35,635 nucleotides of DNA, taken from positions 1 through 35,635 of IMG/VR virus record IMGVR_UViG_3300001589_000061; one strand, written 5' to 3'. A model generated the notes under the pieces. That model saw only the letters and a program-made list of their open reading frames with translations. It did no database searches and was not told where the DNA came from. Shown here piece by piece: positions 4,062-25,916 of this stretch. This stretch comes from a virus. The position numbers and the translations under genes were made by a program. Every line of letters begins with the position of its first letter. The stretch's first letter is position 1.

Positions 4062-4765
4062 GCGAACTTCTCGTAATAGGTGTAGACTCTATTGTACCAT
4101 TCGGTCCGCCACTCGTCATATTCATGCGGCCATACATCAAACTGTTGATATGTTTCTCCACCTAGCAACATTCCGTCATCTCCGCGACTACACATAAAAA
4201 TATGTCCTTCACGTATGTCTGTGCCGTAGATTTCGTTGTGTGCTTCTGCGTATGCTACTAGCTGTAAGAAGTAGTTTTGTACATACTCTAGCTTCTTAGG
4301 CTTGTTAGTTTGTTTAAAGTCCATTATGCTAGGTTGTCCTTTGTACTGTCCAACTAAGTCTGTTGTGCCTGCATACATTTGTGGAACATAAAGAGCAACC
4401 TCACTTCCCCAAATCTCATCTACATCAACCATAGCATTGTCGCGAACTTGTGTTGCCATTGCATGTGCTTTCTTAGCAAATGGATTGCTTCCAGGAGTCG
4501 GCCATTCACCAAAGTCTACATAGTCCTCTAAATATTTGTGCATACGTGTGCCAACACCTGCGGCTTCTGTTGTTATTTCTCTTGCTTTAGTTTCACCTAC
4601 ACGTTTACGCCAAGCTATTAGTCCTGTCTTGTCGCTTGTAGCATCAAGAATAGTTGTAACACTAGCAACTGCACCTCCGTCAGGAGTTAGATACTTTCGT
4701 TTACCATCTATTTGTTTACGTGAAATTGGTTTATAATCGTACTTAGGCTTAATCAAACTACTCAT
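4058..4765 (-). CDS. PD-(D/E)XK superfamily nuclease (RecB/Cas4-like)
   Basis: Probable DNA exonuclease of about 235 residues, for recombination, repair or host DNA breakdown. The catalytic core is visible: GVGTRMHKYLEDYV (the helix with a conserved histidine), GTTDLVGQYKG with the first aspartate, IMDFKQTNK as the D-x-K motif, then YFLQLVAYAEAHNEIYG, the Q-x(2)-Y helix typical of RecB-like nucleases. No C-terminal iron-sulphur cysteines are seen, so it is not a full Cas4. An ATG at 4777 is also possible; I prefer 4765, which overlaps the end of the upstream Fe-S gene by 8 bases. Neither start has a clear ribosome site, suggesting translational coupling. Confidence 0.82.
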   Translation of the reverse strand: MSSLIKPKYDYKPISRKQIDGKRKYLTPDGGAVASVTTILDATSDKTGLIAWRKRVGETKAREITTEAAGVGTRMHKYLEDYVDFGEWPTPGSNPFAKKAHAMATQVRDNAMVDVDEIWGSEVALYVPQMYAGTTDLVGQYKGQPSIMDFKQTNKPKKLEYVQNYFLQLVAYAEAHNEIYGTDIREGHIFMCSRGDDGMLLGGETYQQFDVWPHEYDEWRTEWYNRVYTYYEKFA

Positions 4766-5075
4766 AGTCAAGACCATCGTCCATCATAGATGGTCCGTAA
4801 TCATTATAATAAGGTTGTACATCACTAGCACCGTCTTGAGCTTCAACTGTTAGTACCTCAGGTACATAATGTTTTAGCATATTTTCAACACCCATTTTAA
4901 GTGTAATTGTGCTTCCCATACATCCACTGCATGCCCCGCCTAATTCTAGAAGCAAATGTCCTTCTTTATAATCAACGTATTCAATAACGCCGCCGTGACT
5001 AGCTACAGCTGGTTTTACATGTGATTCGATTAACTCTTTGATTTGTTCAATGACTTCTTCGTCAGGTCTACTCAT
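4758..5075 (-). CDS. NifU C-terminal-domain (Nfu/NfuA-type) Fe-S scaffold
   Basis: Carries and hands over iron-sulphur clusters. The 105-residue protein is the Nfu domain alone: IKELIESHVKPAVASHGGVI, then LGGACSGCMGS with the cluster cysteines C49 and C52, then an acidic tail. It lacks the degenerate A-type domain of E. coli NfuA. Small Nfu proteins are known cargo of marine T4-like phages. It has its own sigma70-like promoter (5098-5126) and ribosome site (AGGAG), so it may be made at a different time from the virion genes around it. Possible clients cannot be named from sequence. Confidence 0.9.
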   Translation of the reverse strand: MSRPDEEVIEQIKELIESHVKPAVASHGGVIEYVDYKEGHLLLELGGACSGCMGSTITLKMGVENMLKHYVPEVLTVEAQDGASDVQPYYNDYGPSMMDDGLDYE

Positions 5076-5455: not shown

Positions 5456-6387
5456 TTTTTTCCGGAAAGTATAGCGCCAACCTTACGTGAACGTTCGATT
5501 GATTCTCTAGTAGCTCGACCAGCTTCTTCTTCGCCACTTTGTGCCGCCGCGGCCGCCGCAAAGTCATCTTCACTTGGTTCTTCTGCAGGTGCTTCTGCGT
5601 CTACTGTTGGTTCCATTGCTGGATCAGCTTCTGCGTCCATTGCTGGGTCTTCTGCACCCATTGCATCTGCCGGCTCACCTTCTCCTGTAAGCATGCCAAC
5701 TCCGCCAGTCAACGCAACACGAGTTGTTTCCATTTCAGCATATAGTGCATCAAGTGCTGGCTTAATTGCCGCAGTAAATGCTTCCGAAGTTTCTGAACCC
5801 ATTTCGTCTCTGATAGCATCTGCTAGTTCTAACATTGATTCTGACTGCATCTCTGCTGTGTCTTCCATCCAACCTGTTAGTTTGTCAACCATATCCTTAG
5901 ATGCCATTACTAGTTGTGCTTTATCTTCTTCACCTTCTTTAATAACTGATTCTTTCATTCCTGATTTACAATCTTTGACCATTGCTTTTATTTTTGCTTG
6001 ATCGCAATCTGGATGCATTTTACAAATTTCTTCCATACTCTTACCATCTTTGCACATTTTCATAATGTGTGCTTTTGATGGCATTTTGCCTTTTTCAGTT
6101 TCAGAAAGTTCTTCTGCTGTTGGAATGCCTTTTTCGTCTTGACGTTCAATAATAGCTTTGTTCAAAATGTCTAGGAACAATTTTGATTTTTGGTAGCTGT
6201 CTGTATGAACTGCATTGAAGCTTTCATTAGTTTCAATATCTCTTACTTGAGATCTAAGTTGGTTACGTGCATCTTCTAACTGTGCAAAATTAAACTTTGC
6301 TAAGTCAATTTTCGTTCCAAACTTTTGTGCCATGCTTTCATTAAGGGTAGCACTTGTAATTGGTTTTGCTATTTCTCTAATATTCAT
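5446..6387 (-). CDS. Prohead core / scaffold-like virion protein
   Basis: A 313-residue hydrophilic protein that I read as a head scaffold or core component, by composition and context rather than by a diagnostic motif. The N-terminus MNIREIAKPITSATLNES has a T4-like head-targeting look with an L-N-E cleavage site. Residues 35-90 are helical (QLEDARNQLRSQVRDIE); then comes a lysine/cysteine-rich stretch (HIMKMCKDGKSMEEICKMHP). Residues 230-300 are a low-complexity acidic Ala/Glu/Pro region followed by a basic end, SGKKKK. The zero frame stops at 5446 directly after the slippery A run described for the extension. A late-type motif lies 34 bases upstream. Confidence 0.6.
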   Translation of the reverse strand: MNIREIAKPITSATLNESMAQKFGTKIDLAKFNFAQLEDARNQLRSQVRDIETNESFNAVHTDSYQKSKLFLDILNKAIIERQDEKGIPTAEELSETEKGKMPSKAHIMKMCKDGKSMEEICKMHPDCDQAKIKAMVKDCKSGMKESVIKEGEEDKAQLVMASKDMVDKLTGWMEDTAEMQSESMLELADAIRDEMGSETSEAFTAAIKPALDALYAEMETTRVALTGGVGMLTGEGEPADAMGAEDPAMDAEADPAMEPTVDAEAPAEEPSEDDFAAAAAAQSGEEEAGRATRESIERSRKVGAILSGKKKK

Positions 6388-14109: not shown

Positions 14110-14400
14110 ACTTATAATTATAGTTCCTACTAGCATTGCTATCCAAAAACCGTAAATTGGTAAAACATAAACAAAGATAGGAAAAAATAAGAGGCTTACT
14201 AAAACAAAGTATATTGTTTGTATACTTAAAGTTTTAAAAGTTTCTACATCAACTCCTGCATAATACAAAAATATAAAAGATACAAAACTTGCTAAAGGGA
14301 TACCTAATACAAATGCACCTATCGTAGGATATCTTTCACTAACAGTACTTACAGTAGCAATTATTATTCCGCCTATGATTGCTTTGAACAAAAGTTCCAT
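14077..14400 (-). CDS. Small integral membrane protein (DUF3147-like)
   Basis: 107 residues with four hydrophobic segments (AIIGGIIIATVSTV; GIPLASFVSFIFLYYAG; IYFVLVSLLFFPIFVYVLP; FWIAMLVGTIIISSLMFG). The opening resembles bacterial DUF3147 proteins, whose role is unknown. It starts on the stop codon of the PRPP synthetase gene (TAATG), so it is translationally coupled to it. Confidence 0.7.
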   Translation of the reverse strand: MELLFKAIIGGIIIATVSTVSERYPTIGAFVLGIPLASFVSFIFLYYAGVDVETFKTLSIQTIYFVLVSLLFFPIFVYVLPIYGFWIAMLVGTIIISSLMFGLYRFL

Positions 14401-15332
14401 TATACAAACAACGTACTTACTGACTCTTCGTTAGTCACTCTACGTATTGCTTCCCCAAACAAAGGTGCAACACTAACCTGTCGAGTCTTTTTACAGTTCT
14501 TAGGACATCGATTAGCAATTGAATCCGAAACTACTAATTCGTCCAGGACACTTTTCTCTACTTTCGCACATGCTTCGTCTGACAGTACACCATGTGTAAT
14601 ATAAGCACGAACACTTGCCGCACCAGCCTCCATAATAGCTTTGGCCGCATTACATAATGTACCTCCACTATCTACAATATCATCAACTAGAACTGCATGT
14701 TTACCTTTTACATCTCCTATTAGATTCATAACTTCGCTTTTGCCTGCTTCTGGTCTACGTTTGTCGACAATAGCAATGTCTCCATTAAACATATCTGCAA
14801 ACTTTCTAGCACGAACAACTCCACCTGCATCAGGTGATACAAATACTGTTCCTTCTGTTGTATCTACATTACGTTTAATATCTTTAGCAAAGACTGTTCT
14901 ACTTGTTAAGTCATCAACTGGTATATCAAAAAATCCTTGTATCTGTCCTGCATGAAGATCCATAGTTAATATCCTATCAGCACCTGCTACTGTAATAAGA
15001 TTAGCAACTAACTTAGCGGTAATTGGTGTTCTACTTGCACTCTTACGATCTTGTCTTGCATATCCGAAATAAGGAATTACTGCTGTGATTCTTTTAGCAC
15101 TACTACGCCTAGCCGCATCAATCATAATTAATAATTCCATTACACTATCATTAACAGGAGTACAAGTGCTTTGGACAATAAACACATCTTCACCGCGAAT
15201 GTTTTCTAAAAATTCTACACTCGACTCGCCGTCAGCAAAAGTCGAGACGTTCGCAGGAACTAATGTAGCAAAACATTGTTCTGCTATCTCCTGGGCCAAG
15301 TGAGGATTGGCGTTCCCTGTTATGATTTTCAT
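14400..15332 (-). CDS. prs: Ribose-phosphate pyrophosphokinase (PRPP synthetase)
   Basis: Makes PRPP from ribose-5-phosphate and ATP, the entry point to nucleotide, NAD and histidine synthesis. Signature motifs are intact: [54 protein letters not shown] (Mg/PRPP loop), [14 protein letters not shown] and [14 protein letters not shown] (the PRPP-binding loop). The start at 15332 ([10 protein letters not shown]) gives 310 residues, matching the family; an upstream ATG at 15383 would only add a non-family leader. Its own sigma70-like promoter lies at 15375-15403. With nrdA and the phosphate permease it supports nucleotide supply. Prs is known in some large marine phages. Confidence 0.95.
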
Positions 15333-15374
15333 TTTCAATTTGACTCCCTTTCCGTTAATGATATGTGTACTTAT

Positions 15375-15403
15375 ATGATACAATCATATTAAGAATTAGT
15401 CAA
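15375..15403 (-). promoter_or_regulatory. Sigma70-like promoter for prs
   Basis: Minus strand: TTGACT (15398-15403), 17-base spacer, TATCAT (15375-15380), 42 bases before the chosen prs start. One mismatch in each box. Confidence 0.7.
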
Positions 15404-17612: not shown

Positions 17613-18041
17613 ATGAAAAATTTACTATCAACAGTTGCCCTCTTGGGTCTACTATCAACTCCGGCACTAGCCGCAGACACAACAATCGACATGCTAAACA
17701 AACGTGATGACGGAGCCAAAATGGTTTACAGTCAAGATATTGCACGTATTGATGCAGGCGATACAATTACTTGGTTACCAAAGTCAAAAGGTCACAACGT
17801 AGAATTCGTTGCAGGTCCAGATGGTTGGGAAGCACCAAAGAAATCAAAGAATGGTAAAGAAGTTGCTATTACATTTGATACTCCAGGAATATATCTATAC
17901 CAATGTACCCCACACAAGAGCATGGGCATGATTGCAATGGTAGTTGTTGGCGATGATACATCTAACTTAGATGCAATGGCTGGTATGAAAATGCGTGGCA
18001 AAAGCAAAAAGAAGATGAAAGCATTACTTGCTGATCTCTAA
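17613..18041 (+). CDS. Pseudoazurin, periplasmic blue-copper protein
   Basis: Small electron carrier. A signal peptide (MKNLLSTVALLGLLSTPALA, cut near residue 20) exports it. The type-1 copper ligands are all in place: H61 in KGHNVEF, C98, H101 and M106 in YQCTPHKSMGM, with the C-x2-H-x4-M spacing of pseudoazurins. The region GPDGWEAPKKSKNG is also typical. Length (142) matches the family. In bacteria it passes electrons to nitrite or nitrous-oxide reductases or to oxidases. It leads an operon with DoxX and small membrane proteins; the next gene starts on its stop codon (TAATG). The promoter at 17534-17565 carries a palindrome. Confidence 0.92.
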   Translation: MKNLLSTVALLGLLSTPALAADTTIDMLNKRDDGAKMVYSQDIARIDAGDTITWLPKSKGHNVEFVAGPDGWEAPKKSKNGKEVAITFDTPGIYLYQCTPHKSMGMIAMVVVGDDTSNLDAMAGMKMRGKSKKKMKALLADL

Positions 18042-20524: not shown

Positions 20525-21583
20525 TTATACAGTATACGGATCTAAGTCTAGATACTTACCCCATTCACCATAGTAATGACGCATACCTACTTCATCATGT
20601 ATGGTTCCGTTCTCATGCCTACCATGTAAAATGCTTCTAGCTTCTGTGCCTTCTCGCATTGTTGTGCCTTGTCCGGCTACGCCTATCAGGTCTTCATGTA
20701 GGTTGCGTCCAAACGGTCCCCATATACTATTGTGATGGTTGATGCGTGTGCGTCTTTCTTCTGGTGTATCTTTGCGTAGTCCATAACCTCTAAACTCAAT
20801 AAGAACTTTGTTACAACCTAATGGAGTAACTGAGTCGCTTCTATATGCACTACCACGCAAGTTAAAGTTAAAGCCTGGAAACAAATCTACCATGTACCAC
20901 TGGTTAGGTGGTAGGTTAGGAAAACTTAGTTCGCCTCTATCTTCAAATCCTTCATACTCTTCGTAGTTTACAGTAAACGAACTTACGTTTACATGACCGT
21001 TGTCAAAAGGTATATTCTTACGTGCAAAGTATTCATCGTTGAATCCGCTCACACGATTAAAGTAATGCATGAAGTCGTGATAGAATTCACTATTGGTATC
21101 ATGCCATAGTTTGTAGTTTGTATCGATTACTGCTTTATGATAATGGAACACTTCCATCTCTTCCGTGTCAATGGCGTCAGCAATACAATCAAATGCTCCT
21201 GCGGTCCATTGCTCTACGCTCTGTGTAGGATTAGGATCAAGTGTTACCCATACCATACCTCCGTGCTTTACTTCGCAATGCAACTGTGGTTCAACAGTTA
21301 CAATAGGTGCTCCTAGCGTACCACTAGGACTGTTTATGCCATAGTTACGATATGCTCTTACGCCATTGCCTGTGTTATATGCAATTACATTTACACCTGC
21401 TATTTGTGTTGTTCGATAGTCTAATTCGTTATACATTTCTGAGATATGACACATGGGTACCCACACCTTACTAAAGATGTGTTCTTGTTCCTGTGCAAAT
21501 ATCTCTGGGCTATTATAAGCTGAACTGCTAATTGATTCTACGTTTGGTTGTGCTAACCAACTCTTATGATTGCGTGGTGGCAT
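20525..21583 (-). CDS. Rieske-type oxygenase alpha subunit lacking the Rieske cluster
   Basis: 352 residues. The start matches ring-hydroxylating oxygenases (IFAQEQEHIFSKVWVPMCHI; TTQIAGVNVIAYNTGNGVRA). The [2Fe-2S] segment C-x-H ... C-x2-H, expected at about residues 80-105, is absent: the sequence runs YRNYGINSPSGTLGAPIVTV and straight on to GGMVWVTLDPNP. The mononuclear iron site is kept, with H169 and H173 in NSEFYHDFMHYF and probably D298 in NLHEDLIG. The protein is shorter than usual (about 400-450) by about the size of the lost part. It may use another electron source or have a new reaction. Promoter and palindromes lie at 21615-21661. Confidence 0.8.
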   Translation of the reverse strand: MPPRNHKSWLAQPNVESISSSAYNSPEIFAQEQEHIFSKVWVPMCHISEMYNELDYRTTQIAGVNVIAYNTGNGVRAYRNYGINSPSGTLGAPIVTVEPQLHCEVKHGGMVWVTLDPNPTQSVEQWTAGAFDCIADAIDTEEMEVFHYHKAVIDTNYKLWHDTNSEFYHDFMHYFNRVSGFNDEYFARKNIPFDNGHVNVSSFTVNYEEYEGFEDRGELSFPNLPPNQWYMVDLFPGFNFNLRGSAYRSDSVTPLGCNKVLIEFRGYGLRKDTPEERRTRINHHNSIWGPFGRNLHEDLIGVAGQGTTMREGTEARSILHGRHENGTIHDEVGMRHYYGEWGKYLDLDPYTV

Positions 21584-21669: not shown

Positions 21670-21768
21670 TGGCTCTGGGGGAAGGATTCGAACCTCCACG
21701 GTAAATACTTTGCGAGCTATTACCACACGTTAAACAGACGTGCATGTCTACCATTTCATCACCCCAGA
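21670..21768 (-). tRNA. tRNA-like gene, GUU (Asn) anticodon, long variable arm
   Basis: A 99-base cloverleaf can be drawn with CCA encoded. Acceptor stem TCTGGGG/CCCCAGA, discriminator G; D arm with ATG/CAT and GG in the loop; anticodon stem CACGT/ACGTG with loop CTGTTTA, giving anticodon GTT; T arm GGAGG-TTCGAAT-CCTTC. The variable region is 28 bases with a GGTAA/TTACC stem, as in class II tRNAs (Leu, Ser, Tyr), and the D arm looks Leu-like. Normal tRNA-Asn has a short variable loop. Base 37 is T, where a purine is expected. It lies 6 bases after the AsxRS-like gene on the same strand. Confidence 0.8.
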
Positions 21769-21774
21769 TCATTC

Positions 21775-22605
21775 TTATATCTTGTTGATCTTTTCTAGTG
21801 CAGGTATCATTCGTGTAATACCAATACCTCCACCTACTCTTTGAAAAAAGTCAAACTCTAAAAACTTTTCAAGCTCTGCTACTACACGTTCTTTACCAAA
21901 TAATTTAAACAACAGCTCCGAGTAAGCTCCGTCTGTAATTGTATGGAATGTATCTCTCATCATATCAATATCACATGAGCGTTCTGCTGAGCCAATAGTT
22001 TCCATACCACCTAGTATGACATCAATCTTTTTACTTGTTCCGCCGCCATCGTTTCTACTCATATTCCAAAACGGTGATGTCATCTCTGGAAAGTCTGTAA
22101 TCATTGTTTGACCAAAGTCTGCCGCCATCTTTAGTTCATGTTCAGCATCCATCTCGTTGATCCAATCAACTCCGTAATGCTCTTGCCAATCTCTATAAGT
22201 CTTTTCTGTAATGTTACCAAAGCCTAAGTATTCACATAGTTCATACTCCATTGCTTTAAGATCATTTATGTCGCCTGGCATTTCAAATTCAAACATTGGA
22301 AATATAATGTCATGTCTACCTGGGATTGCATTTGGTTCTTGTCTATAGGACGTTGAGACACAAAAAAACCCCTTACTATCGGGGCTACTTAATAATTCAT
22401 GTTCTAGCCACATCTGGCCTGTTTGCGGTAACGGCCAAACTTGGCCTGCATAGTTGTATACTGCTACGTTAAATGGATCTTCGCATGCGGCAAGTATTGA
22501 TAGTCTGTTCTGTGTATGGACTTCTAGAAATCCTTTGTCCAAAAAAAATGACCTTAAAAGGCCAACTGTTTCGGTAAATTTACGTGGGTTTATTAGTTGC
22601 GTCAT
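21775..22605 (-). CDS. Stand-alone class II AsxRS-like catalytic domain (AsnRS paralogue or archaeal-type asparagine synthetase)
   Basis: 276 residues from the ATG at 22605 (AAAGGA upstream). The fold is that of the AspRS/AsnRS catalytic core: PLPQTGQMWLE at 58-68, motif 2 in STSYRQEPNAIPGRHD (R88, E90), VILGGMETIGSAERS at 196-210, and motif 3 GGGIGITRMI at 258-267 with R265. The N-terminal anticodon-binding OB domain of true AsnRS and AspRS is missing. Such trimmed paralogues include archaeal asparagine synthetase, related to AsnRS, and enzymes that modify other substrates. The tRNA with an Asn anticodon begins 6 bases downstream, so charging or modifying it is the attractive idea. Substrate is not proven. 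Confidence 0.78.
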   Translation of the reverse strand: MTQLINPRKFTETVGLLRSFFLDKGFLEVHTQNRLSILAACEDPFNVAVYNYAGQVWPLPQTGQMWLEHELLSSPDSKGFFCVSTSYRQEPNAIPGRHDIIFPMFEFEMPGDINDLKAMEYELCEYLGFGNITEKTYRDWQEHYGVDWINEMDAEHELKMAADFGQTMITDFPEMTSPFWNMSRNDGGGTSKKIDVILGGMETIGSAERSCDIDMMRDTFHTITDGAYSELLFKLFGKERVVAELEKFLEFDFFQRVGGGIGITRMIPALEKINKI

Positions 22606-22714: not shown

Positions 22715-23464
22715 TTATAAGAAGGTAACTAAATTATCTTTTGTAGGTTTTTGTCTTCTAGTAAAATGTTTTTCTTTTGGAAATGACTGCGGCAGATTTT
22801 TAGGCATACGTCCTTTCCATTCATCATCTTTGTGTACCCAATGTATAACTGTTTCTTTTTCTTGTGTATCAAGTTTAGCATAACCTATACCTAATGCTAA
22901 ACATAGTTCAACAACACCTTCTCCTAATATTGTATCATGCCAATTTGTACTATGACATCTTGCATAACCAGTTCGTAAGCCCTGCTCTTCTGCTGATAAA
23001 CATGCAAAGCTGGCGCTTACTGCTACGTCCATTAGTATTTGTTCTTTTTGTCCTCGACTAATTTCACCACTAAAGTTCCATGCTTCTTCGGCGCCTTTTA
23101 TTGCATCTAACGTTGCTTCATCAGTATTTGTGTTATTATCTTCTACTGATGATTGGTGTCTTCTTGACCATAACAACAATATTGGAGCTAGATATTGGCC
23201 ATTATATCTTTTTTTAGTACTATCTTGATGTTCTTGTGGTGTTTGTTTTCCGCCCACAACCCAAGTGTCATTCCAAAATAAATTTTGTTTAAATTTAGTT
23301 GCTTCAAGTGAGTTTGTTAAAACGTGTAATTGATATGGATATATTGAATTCTTACTAGGAGCACCGATAGCACAATCTATTATATAATCTATTTTATGTT
23401 TTTCTATTGGAGTGTCCAACCAATGATAGCATGTAGATCTTTGGTCTATTAGATCTTTTAACAT
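22715..23464 (-). CDS. Nitroreductase-family flavoprotein
   Basis: FMN-dependent NAD(P)H oxidoreductase family, 249 residues. Marks: LIDQRSTCYHWLDTPIEK at the start, IIDCAIGAPSKNSIYPYQLH (the A-P-S-x-x-N-x-x-P-x motif), and DVAVSASFACLSAEEQGLRT then GIGYAK near the end. It has a longer polar middle (residues 85-130) than simple nitroreductases. I chose the ATG at 23464, overlapping the upstream stop; an upstream in-frame ATG at 23521 is less likely. The electron acceptor is unknown. Confidence 0.8.
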   Translation of the reverse strand: MLKDLIDQRSTCYHWLDTPIEKHKIDYIIDCAIGAPSKNSIYPYQLHVLTNSLEATKFKQNLFWNDTWVVGGKQTPQEHQDSTKKRYNGQYLAPILLLWSRRHQSSVEDNNTNTDEATLDAIKGAEEAWNFSGEISRGQKEQILMDVAVSASFACLSAEEQGLRTGYARCHSTNWHDTILGEGVVELCLALGIGYAKLDTQEKETVIHWVHKDDEWKGRMPKNLPQSFPKEKHFTRRQKPTKDNLVTFL

Positions 23465-23592
23465 ACAAAAAAAGTATAAAAAAGAATTGTTAGGACGACA
23501 CCTTTTGCAAATGCTAACCAAGCTATGCCATACCAGCCTATACCTAGTTTATCAGACCACCATTCTACATATCTTTTATGCCGTTCGATCAT
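23458..23592 (-). CDS. Tiny membrane protein, 44 aa
   Basis: MIERHKRYVEWWSDKLGIGW then one hydrophobic segment ending FFVC. It starts on the stop of the previous gene (TAATG) and overlaps the nitroreductase start by 7 bases, which supports a real, coupled gene. Unrecognised. Confidence 0.6.
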   Translation of the reverse strand: MIERHKRYVEWWSDKLGIGWYGIAWLAFAKGVVLTILFYTFFVC

Positions 23593-24578: not shown

Positions 24579-24754
24579 AATGGTGTAAAGACTATCAAGC
24601 ATTTCAACGAGAAATGAATGAAATGGGAATATTTAATATTCCCCACTTATTTGGTGTAGCCACATATATTGATAAAGAGAGTTTTGACCGGATAAGTAAA
24701 AATAATGATAGATCTTACGATATTCCAAAAAACAATAGACACCTTAAAGACTGA
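24539..24754 (+). CDS. Hypothetical small protein, 71 aa
   Basis: [20 protein letters not shown], helical and charged, with a polar tail. GGAGG lies 11 bases before its ATG. It overlaps the gene before it by 40 bases and the synthase after it by 50, larger overlaps than usual here. Unrecognised. Confidence 0.55.
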
Positions 24755-25916
24755 AGGCAAGTACCGCGTCTTTAACGACATAGTTCGTGAAGCAGGAGAC
24801 TTTCCTAAGTCTATATGGTATGGACCGTATAATATTAAGAACATTGTAAACTGGTGTAGCAATGACTACCTCGGTATGGGGCAACATAAAGTTGTTACTG
24901 ATGCAATGCATACTGCCCTTGACCAAACAGGTAGCGGCTCGGGTGGAACAAGAAACATTGGTGGCACTAGCCATTACCATGTAGCATTGGAGAACGAACT
25001 TGCCCGTTTGCATAGCAACGGAGCGGCTTTACTCTATACAAGTGCATATGTGGCCAATGAGTGGACACTCATAGCATTAAGCAAGATCATTCCCAACATT
25101 GTCTTTTTAAGTGATTCAAGTAATCACGCCTCGATAATCACAGGTATAAAAAATAGTGGTGCTGAAAAGATTATTTGGAAGCACAATGATATGATGGACC
25201 TTGAGGAGAAACTAGTAGAAGCCGCTGACAGAAAAATGATACCTTGTATTGTTTTCGAATCTGTGTATAGCATGGAAGGCGATGTATCTCCTATTTCTCA
25301 AGTCTGCGACCTTGCTGAAAAGTACAAGGCGATAACCTATATTGACGAAGTGCATGCAGTTGGTATGTACGGGGAAACTGGCGCAGGATACTGCGAGAAG
25401 ATTGGGGAGAAACGTATTGACGTAATCAATGGTACTTTAGGCAAGGCATATGGAGTACAAGGCGGTTATGTTTCCGGCGACGAATTGGTCATAGATGCAA
25501 TTCGAAGCATAGCAAGTGGATTTATATTCACAACTAGTACGAGCCCGGTTATTTGTGCTGGTGCCTTAGCCTCTATAAAATATCTAAAAGATCATAATGA
25601 ATTACGAGTACAACATCAAGAACGTGCGGCTAAACTTAAAGCTATGTTGGCTGAAGTTAACATAGAAGTTCATAAGGATAGCTGTACGCATATCGTTCCA
25701 GTTATGGTTCGCGATGCAAAACTTTGCAAACGTATGAGTGACATGCTGTTAGAAGATTATAATATCTATATACAGCCTATTAATTACCCTACGGTTGCAG
25801 TCGGACAAGAGCGTTTACGCATCGCGCCTACTCCGCTACATTCAGATGCGATGATGCACGATCTAGTTGACTCTTTACGAAAAGTATTCAAAAGAGTCAA
25901 AGAAGGTTGTGTTTAA
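24705..25916 (+). CDS. hemA: 5-aminolevulinate synthase
   Basis: PLP enzyme condensing glycine with succinyl-CoA to 5-aminolevulinate, the first committed step of tetrapyrrole synthesis in alphaproteobacteria. The 403-residue protein matches the family over its whole length: [73 protein letters not shown], and the PLP lysine K247 in [17 protein letters not shown]. The E-V-H-A-V-G and G-T-x-G-K-A-x-G patterns distinguish ALAS from related alpha-oxoamine synthases. The start fits the family despite overlapping the upstream frame. It shares a plus-strand run with DUF454 and a HemD-like gene. Confidence 0.93.

Follow-up and report, generated by a model that had tools for sequence, protein, structure and literature searches.

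An AsnRS-like enzyme and a class-II-shaped tRNA with an Asn anticodon as an obligate pair in marine phages, with a possible role in pyrimidine synthesis

Aminoacyl-tRNAs are used outside translation by glutamyl-tRNA reductase, by GatCAB, and by the Fem/PEARL-type ligases, and the staphylococcal tRNA-Gly that does not decode is an example of a dedicated non-decoding tRNA. To our knowledge, none of these systems makes pyrimidines, and in none of them is an AsnRS-like enzyme strictly tied to a class II tRNA that has an Asn anticodon. In the textbook account, pyrimidines are synthesized de novo by a single universal pathway starting from carbamoyl phosphate and aspartate. Archaeal asparagine synthetase A (AS-AR; PDB 3p8t, 3reu, 3rl6) is an AsnRS-type catalytic domain of about 290 aa without an anticodon domain. 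It has no tRNA partner, and we know of no case in which it is encoded in a pyrimidine operon.

The closest described genes are those of the cyanophages P-SSM2, P-SSM5, and P-SSM7, which possess the pair of genes dealt with here, annotated as “tRNA ligase” and “tRNA-Asn.” The genes of P-SSM2 and P-SSM7 (“tRNA ligase,” T4-GC 194) are 65-68% identical to those of the present locus but were annotated as two separate ordinary items; the tRNA of P-SSM2 was annotated elsewhere, and by sequence it is located behind the enzyme gene. No function, pairing, or link to pyrimidines was found for the P-SSM2 and P-SSM7 genes in the open-access papers searched, and searches of the open-access literature revealed neither an account of the two genes as a pair nor a pyrimidine route linked to a tRNA.

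The enzyme and the tRNA of the window

The window is the complete 35,635-nt stretch of viral DNA that was analyzed. Its features are listed in Table 1, including the enzyme, termed ENZ in the following, and the tRNA, which begins 6 nt behind the stop codon of the enzyme gene.

Table 1. Positions of the features in the window
Feature	Position	Strand	Description
NifU-domain protein	4758..5075	-	Strong Pfam match
PRPP synthetase	14400..15383	-	PF13793, E 2.9e-53; phrog_619
Cupredoxin, plastocyanin/azurin family	17613..18041	+	Strong Pfam match
Ring-hydroxylating oxygenase, catalytic domain of the alpha subunit	20525..21583	-	PF00848; 352 aa
Class-II-shaped tRNA	21670..21768	-	Anticodon GUU, U37, U1-A72, G73, CCA encoded; from sequence, covariation, and folding
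Variable arm of the tRNA	21698..21725	-	28 nt, TGGTAATAGCTCGCAAAGTATTTACCGT
Anticodon loop of the tRNA	21731..21737	-	CUGUUUA (C32 U33 G34 U35 U36 U37 A38); commonest loop among the relatives
ENZ	21775..22605	-	AsnRS-like class IIb catalytic domain; 276 aa from ATG at 22605; no anticodon-binding domain
Nitroreductase-family protein	22715..23521	-	
Aminotransferase class I/II, presumably of the 5-aminolevulinate synthase kind	24705..25916	+	Named by eye

A preliminary description had assigned the protein to an AsxRS-like catalytic domain of 276 residues with intact motifs 2 and 3 and without an anticodon domain. This assignment was confirmed by the match to the class II D/K/N synthetase domain (PF00152, E 2.4e-15), by the fold, and by an alignment of 63 phage and cellular sequences in which R88/E90 and R265 were invariant. 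The protein also belongs to phrog_29758, a family of unknown function (E 1.8e-128). Its AlphaFold2 model (pLDDT 92.7, pTM 0.90) was closest to human AsnRS (VIA Z 27.7, 2.1 A over 247 residues), followed by AspRS (Z 26.0), GenX (24.0), and archaeal asparagine synthetase A (23.8 for 3rex, 23.5-23.8 for the entries named above). Residues 3-274 of the model aligned to the catalytic domain only, and the OB-fold anticodon-binding domain, which is N-terminal in AsnRS, was absent.

ENZ shares with AsnRS, a class IIb enzyme, the catalytic fold, motifs 2 and 3, Arg209, and a Q-x-x-Q-x-x-L-E stretch: QTGQMWLE of ENZ aligned with QSSQLYLE of AsnRS, while AspRS has QSPQLYKQ there. The two proteins are nevertheless only about 20% identical, and the invariant Cys41, Pro178-Asn181, and Arg240 are features of ENZ alone. 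The curated AsnRS score was missed (29 bits, cut-off 414), and so were those of the asparagine synthetase A models (PRK06462, NCBIfam) with about 16-24 bits against cut-offs of 309-389; the window protein itself reached 15.9 bits with PRK06462, the cut-off of which is 389. Residues E42, Q61, L67, E68, R88, H98, W180, N181, R209, R240, and R265 were shared by 63/63 phage and cellular sequences, with Cys41 and Pro178-Asn181 being likewise invariant. Because these active-site residues do not vary, the phage and the cellular enzymes very probably catalyze the same chemistry.

Read on the minus strand from 21768 to 21670, the tRNA starts with TCTGGGG-TG-ATGAAATGGTAGACAT-G-CACGT-CTGTTTA-ACGTG, continues with the variable arm, and ends with GGAGG-TTCGAAT-CCTTC-CCCCAGA-G-CCA, giving 7 base pairs in the acceptor stem, 3 in the D stem, 5 in the anticodon stem, and 5 in the T stem. 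Folding recovered all arms except the D stem, with a minimum free energy of -30.5 kcal/mol (z -2.1). The tRNA was reported neither by ARAGORN nor by Rfam at the gathering score. This silence was not taken as absence of a tRNA because the relatives show covariation: in 27 aligned sequences, pairing was kept in 97.4% of the cells, and both sides had changed at 21/27 pairs compared with at most 11 when the partners were slid. The earlier claim of a class-II-shaped tRNA with GUU anticodon, 28-nt variable arm, G73, and U37 was thus borne out by all four features being read in the sequence, and its check by tRNA finders and covariance was supportive with respect to covariation but not with respect to the finders. 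Of an ordinary tRNA-Asn, the window tRNA has GUU, G73, and U1-A72. It does not have the class I shape with a variable loop of 4-5 nt (28 nt in the window, 13-39 nt in the relatives), and while U33 is present, position 37 is a U instead of the purine 37 (t6A37) of tRNA-Asn.

Pairing in phages and the bases kept by the tRNA

A search of viral sequences with ENZ matched at least about 600 stretches, and in the nearest loci a class II GUU tRNA followed the enzyme gene on the same strand. Starting from the enzyme, 77 of the 80 P-SSM2-like loci possessed a match to the tRNA model directly behind ENZ, and the contigs of the other 3 end at this position. Starting from a scan for the tRNA pattern that was blind to ENZ, 80 viral stretches were obtained; ENZ was present in 73/73 testable ones, and in the other 7 the tRNA was located near the end of the available stretch. 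The reciprocal scans rule out that the two genes are chance neighbors. In marine phages the two genes form an obligate pair; the enzyme and the tRNA belong together, as had been claimed, and the option of an asparagine synthetase beside an unrelated tRNA is refuted. In total, 277 ENZ loci had a class II tRNA directly behind the enzyme gene, at a median distance of 14 nt, which indicates that both are probably parts of the same transcript.

Co-occurrence in the wider survey held for the marine phages but not for cells and some divergent phages, which carry ENZ without the tRNA, a situation that the preliminary description had listed as refuting its proposal. The matches listed for two huge-phage records (L084, L085) and for several long contigs with ENZ included no class II GUU tRNA, and one huge phage with ENZ has an ordinary tRNA-Asn. 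In a tree of 63 enzymes, the tRNA-bearing phages were scattered among cells and tRNA-less phages, with supported branches forcing at least 6 changes of label; therefore, the tRNA was gained or lost repeatedly, and in the same form every time. About 50 nt behind ENZ of another locus (L089, near 5865-5890), a tRNA cut down to its acceptor stem was observed, TCCGGGG-T-CCCCCGGAGCCA, which is either a deletion of the entire tRNA body or an assembly artifact.

The 277 loci contained 134 distinct tRNA sequences. For the base counts, every class II tRNA up to 700 nt downstream of ENZ was used, with no condition on the anticodon or the discriminator. G73 and U8-G9 were each present in 134/134, the pair 1-72 was U-A in 129 and A-U in 5, and the anticodon was GUU in 133 and GUC in 1. 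Within the anticodon loop, variation was confined to the bases outside the anticodon. Position 37 was U in 123 tRNAs, A in 10, and C in 1, a pyrimidine in 124/134, and U33 was replaced by C or G in 11/134. U37 cannot carry t6A. CCA was often encoded. As a comparison, 123 other distinct tRNAs of the fetched phage loci had a purine 37 and U33 in all cases, and their pair 1-72 was mostly not A-U. The single tRNA with the Asp anticodon (GUC; L270, 2830-2940) has a variable arm of 39 nt.

The Asn identity set consists of the anticodon and G73; amidation of Asp-tRNA-Asn is favored by U1-A72 and opposed by G1-C72 and U20a, and t6A37 is an antideterminant for AspRS in yeast tRNA-Asn (PMC9976931). The conserved G73, anticodon, and U1-A72 of the ENZ-linked tRNAs match these published sets (PMC9976931). 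Since the identity bases were kept and the bases at positions 33 and 37 were lost, the signals for charging and amidation appear to be retained and those for the ribosome dropped; judged from the base counts, the tRNA would keep what AspRS or AsnRS and the amidotransferase read. The lone GUC anticodon would fit AspRS as the reader.

Cellular relatives and pyrimidine genes

ENZ has cellular homologs of 50-61% identity, with an unchanged active site, in Patescibacteria, DPANN archaea, Chlamydiae, Rickettsiales, Dependentiae, Gammaproteobacteria, Myxococcota, and Pasteurella atlantica. No class II tRNA was found at the cellular ENZ loci, and when a class II GUU tRNA was sought elsewhere in 8 of these genomes, the best matches listed were ordinary tRNA-Leu and tRNA-Ser. 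In about 16 of some 73 cellular loci, from several phyla, pyrD, pyrE, or pyrF was present up to 5 kb from ENZ, and in six loci these genes scored above the NCBIfam cut-offs (L109, L116, L121, L136, L146, L154). The gene order was pyrD-ENZ-pyrF-pyrE in P. atlantica (pyrD on the opposite strand), ENZ-pyrF-pyrE-pyrD-prs in a member of the Midichloriaceae, ENZ-pyrEF-pyrD in Myxococcota, and pyrD-pyrE-pyrF-argH-ENZ in a Parcubacterium; prs was part of the ENZ-pyrF-pyrE operons of three loci (L120/L123/L134). On two CPR contigs (L102, 2008-4934; L121, 3844-5976), argininosuccinate lyase and an amidohydrolase (PRK06886) are encoded beside ENZ and pyrE. The two genes were rejected as pathway genes, recurring nowhere else among the loci examined. 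In an SR1 bacterium (L141, 5001-5807), ENZ contains three in-frame stops under table 11, as expected if TGA encodes Gly in this group.

Aspartate carbamoyltransferase (PyrB, ATCase) above the cut-off was absent from 16 of 18 ENZ genomes, many of which are incomplete metagenome-assembled genomes in an unmatched sample; three matches below the threshold, in genomes that were negative otherwise, were ornithine carbamoyltransferases, with an HCLP motif and adjoining carbamate kinase or carAB. Among 15 ENZ genomes, many of them fragmented assemblies, CarB was absent from 13, and so was dihydroorotase above the cut-off in a search that excluded the dimer type of PyrC; dihydroorotate dehydrogenase (DHODH) was present in 11. 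In a sample of Patescibacteria, pyrB occurred in 0/5 genomes with ENZ and in 54/235 others, which is not a significant difference (p 0.59), and DHODH was not seen in three of the five.

Genes of the same kind are located near ENZ in some phages. A pyrE gene above the curated cut-off is present upstream of ENZ and the tRNA in two loci (L220, L295), pyrD-like genes are near them in three (L074, L087, L098), and short genes that resemble pyrE and encode a PRPP-binding motif, several of them near-copies, are up to 5 kb from ENZ in about ten further loci. One locus (L272) has the order purB-ENZ-pyrF-glnII with overlaps between the first three genes (pyrF 207 bits, cut-off 111). Glutamine synthetase (glnII) is near ENZ in three phage-type loci (L272, 2903-3931; L278, 4004-5002; L147, 2660-3322). 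ENZ was present in P-SSM2, P-SSM5, P-SSM7, and three records of huge phages among 50,697 phage records, and among isolated cyanophages (roughly 460 records by gp23) exactly P-SSM2, P-SSM5, and P-SSM7 possess the pyrE of the ENZ phages; these represent two lineages, not six independent events. Neither the short DHODH (7/17 and 2/18 long contigs) nor the short pyrE (ENZ in only 19/78 pyrE stretches) was retained as an obligate partner of ENZ.

The PRPP synthetase of the window, an enzyme that provides orotate phosphoribosyltransferase with its substrate, may possibly belong to the same metabolic module as ENZ, without a positional link. In about 17 of 85 phage loci, a relative of the window oxygenase is encoded just behind the tRNA; a Rieske domain match is absent from the window protein, although its length leaves room for one. 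The nitroreductase-family protein and the aminotransferase flank the region as unusual metabolic cargo for a phage.

Possible functions of the pair

Among the options of the preliminary description, a tRNA acting as a carrier in non-ribosomal chemistry fits best, on account of the relatives in pyrimidine operons and the lost decoding bases, and stands as a proposal. In the reading that is tentatively favored, and that falls somewhat short of being probable, ENZ is an AsnRS-derived enzyme feeding pyrimidine synthesis and the phage tRNA serves solely to carry Asp/Asn, with which host enzymes charge it. We infer a reaction, a direction of flow, and a charging enzyme as follows. The cellular ENZ would replace the missing CarAB-PyrB-PyrC steps and deliver dihydroorotate or its immediate precursor to PyrD, PyrE, and PyrF. 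Its presumed product would feed the same three enzymes as does the CarAB-PyrB-PyrC route, but its fold is unrelated and it occurs mainly where PyrB is absent in the genomes checked. Asparagine already contains N1, N3, and C4-C6 of the dihydroorotate ring together with its carboxylate, and only C2 is missing. The simplest chemistry would be the formation of dihydroorotate from L-asparagine, CO2, and ATP: ENZ may activate asparagine, or its carbamate, with ATP and close the ring with CO2, one step in place of carbamoyl phosphate synthetase, ATCase, and dihydroorotase.

In phages, the host AspRS (or AsnRS) would charge the tRNA by recognition of G73 and of the anticodon, GUU or in one case GUC, and in hosts using the indirect route, the amidotransferase would accept it via U1-A72 (or A1-U72). 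The long variable arm and the altered anticodon loop would exclude the tRNA from translation, making it a carrier instead of a decoder, and ENZ would consume Asn-tRNA or the asparagine carried on the tRNA. The ester of Asn-tRNA is an activated asparagine, and it is the sole asparagine in hosts that make this amino acid only on tRNA. The complete route, in which the non-decoding tRNA brings asparagine from host AspRS plus GatCAB, or from AsnRS, to ENZ for conversion into dihydroorotate with a bypass of CarAB, PyrB, and PyrC, and in which the cellular enzyme uses free asparagine or the Asn-tRNA of the cell, is possible if rather doubtful. Cellular and some divergent phage enzymes have no tRNA nearby, and therefore tRNA dependence is not a general feature of the enzyme. 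The co-occurrence with the short DHODH in phages is loose, the mutual exclusion of ENZ and pyrB in Patescibacteria is not significant, with DHODH missing from sight in most of the ENZ genomes there, and the acidic nature of the enzymes of tRNA-bearing phages (median pI 4.7) does not help tRNA binding. Moreover, AsnRS-like binding of asparagine places the alpha-carboxylate at the ATP, whereas dihydroorotate keeps this carboxylate free; the chemistry would therefore need a carbamate or N-carboxyanhydride twist.

Alternatively, ENZ may aminoacylate the tRNA with asparagine or another amino acid by recognition of the variable arm and the acceptor end, and the tRNA may decode AAC/AAU during infection. 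The obligate pairing, the fold closest to AsnRS, class II motifs 2 and 3, the AsnRS-type L67-E68 and R209, the nearly invariant GUU, and the frequently encoded CCA would all agree with such an orthogonal charging pair. This translation role, preferred in the preliminary description, is nevertheless the weaker reading compared with the metabolic one and unlikely. Pyrimidine 37 and the losses of U33 were found in none of the 123 comparison tRNAs, the anticodon is conserved although ENZ has no domain to read it, and the cellular relatives, which share the active site, are encoded in pyrimidine operons without a dedicated tRNA. That the tRNA is an ordinary decoder with a loop altered to escape host anticodon nucleases, assisted by ENZ as a helper synthetase, is hardly credible: phages are known to have tRNAs whose loops evade nucleases, and the loop indeed varies only outside the anticodon, but the other phage-locus tRNAs kept U33 and purine 37, and the class II shape and the pyrimidine context would be left unexplained.

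The adjacent tRNA is dispensable for the cellular enzymes, and ENZ may thus be a pyrimidine enzyme that needs no tRNA at all, while the tRNA replenishes Asn-tRNA as ENZ drains asparagine or acts in the processing or stabilization of the 3' end of the ENZ message, with which it is probably cotranscribed. This is distinctly unlikely, since a mere processing element would not need an invariant G73, an A-U pair at 1-72, and GUU, and a supplementary decoder should retain U33 and purine 37. An enzyme of the archaeal AsnA kind, an AsnRS paralog without anticodon domain that makes free asparagine for use by the tRNA, would agree in size and fold, in the weak NCBIfam matches, and in the demand for amide nitrogen suggested by glnII near ENZ. 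It is highly improbable because the scores remained far below the cut-offs of the asparagine synthetase A models, the AsnRS-type Leu67-Glu68 suits an amide rather than a carboxylate, and the pyrDEF operons and the missing pyrB would not be explained.

The favored reading, with ENZ in pyrimidine synthesis and the tRNA as its carrier, concerns two questions that can both be tested directly, with the isolated phages P-SSM2 and P-SSM7 and with pyrimidine mutants of Escherichia coli. If true, an ENZ that takes over the first three pyrimidine steps in several lineages of bacteria and archaea would represent new core metabolism and would explain genomes with pyrDEF but without pyrB. A phage tRNA with signals for charging but not for decoding would add nucleotide synthesis to the few tasks of aminoacyl-tRNAs outside translation.
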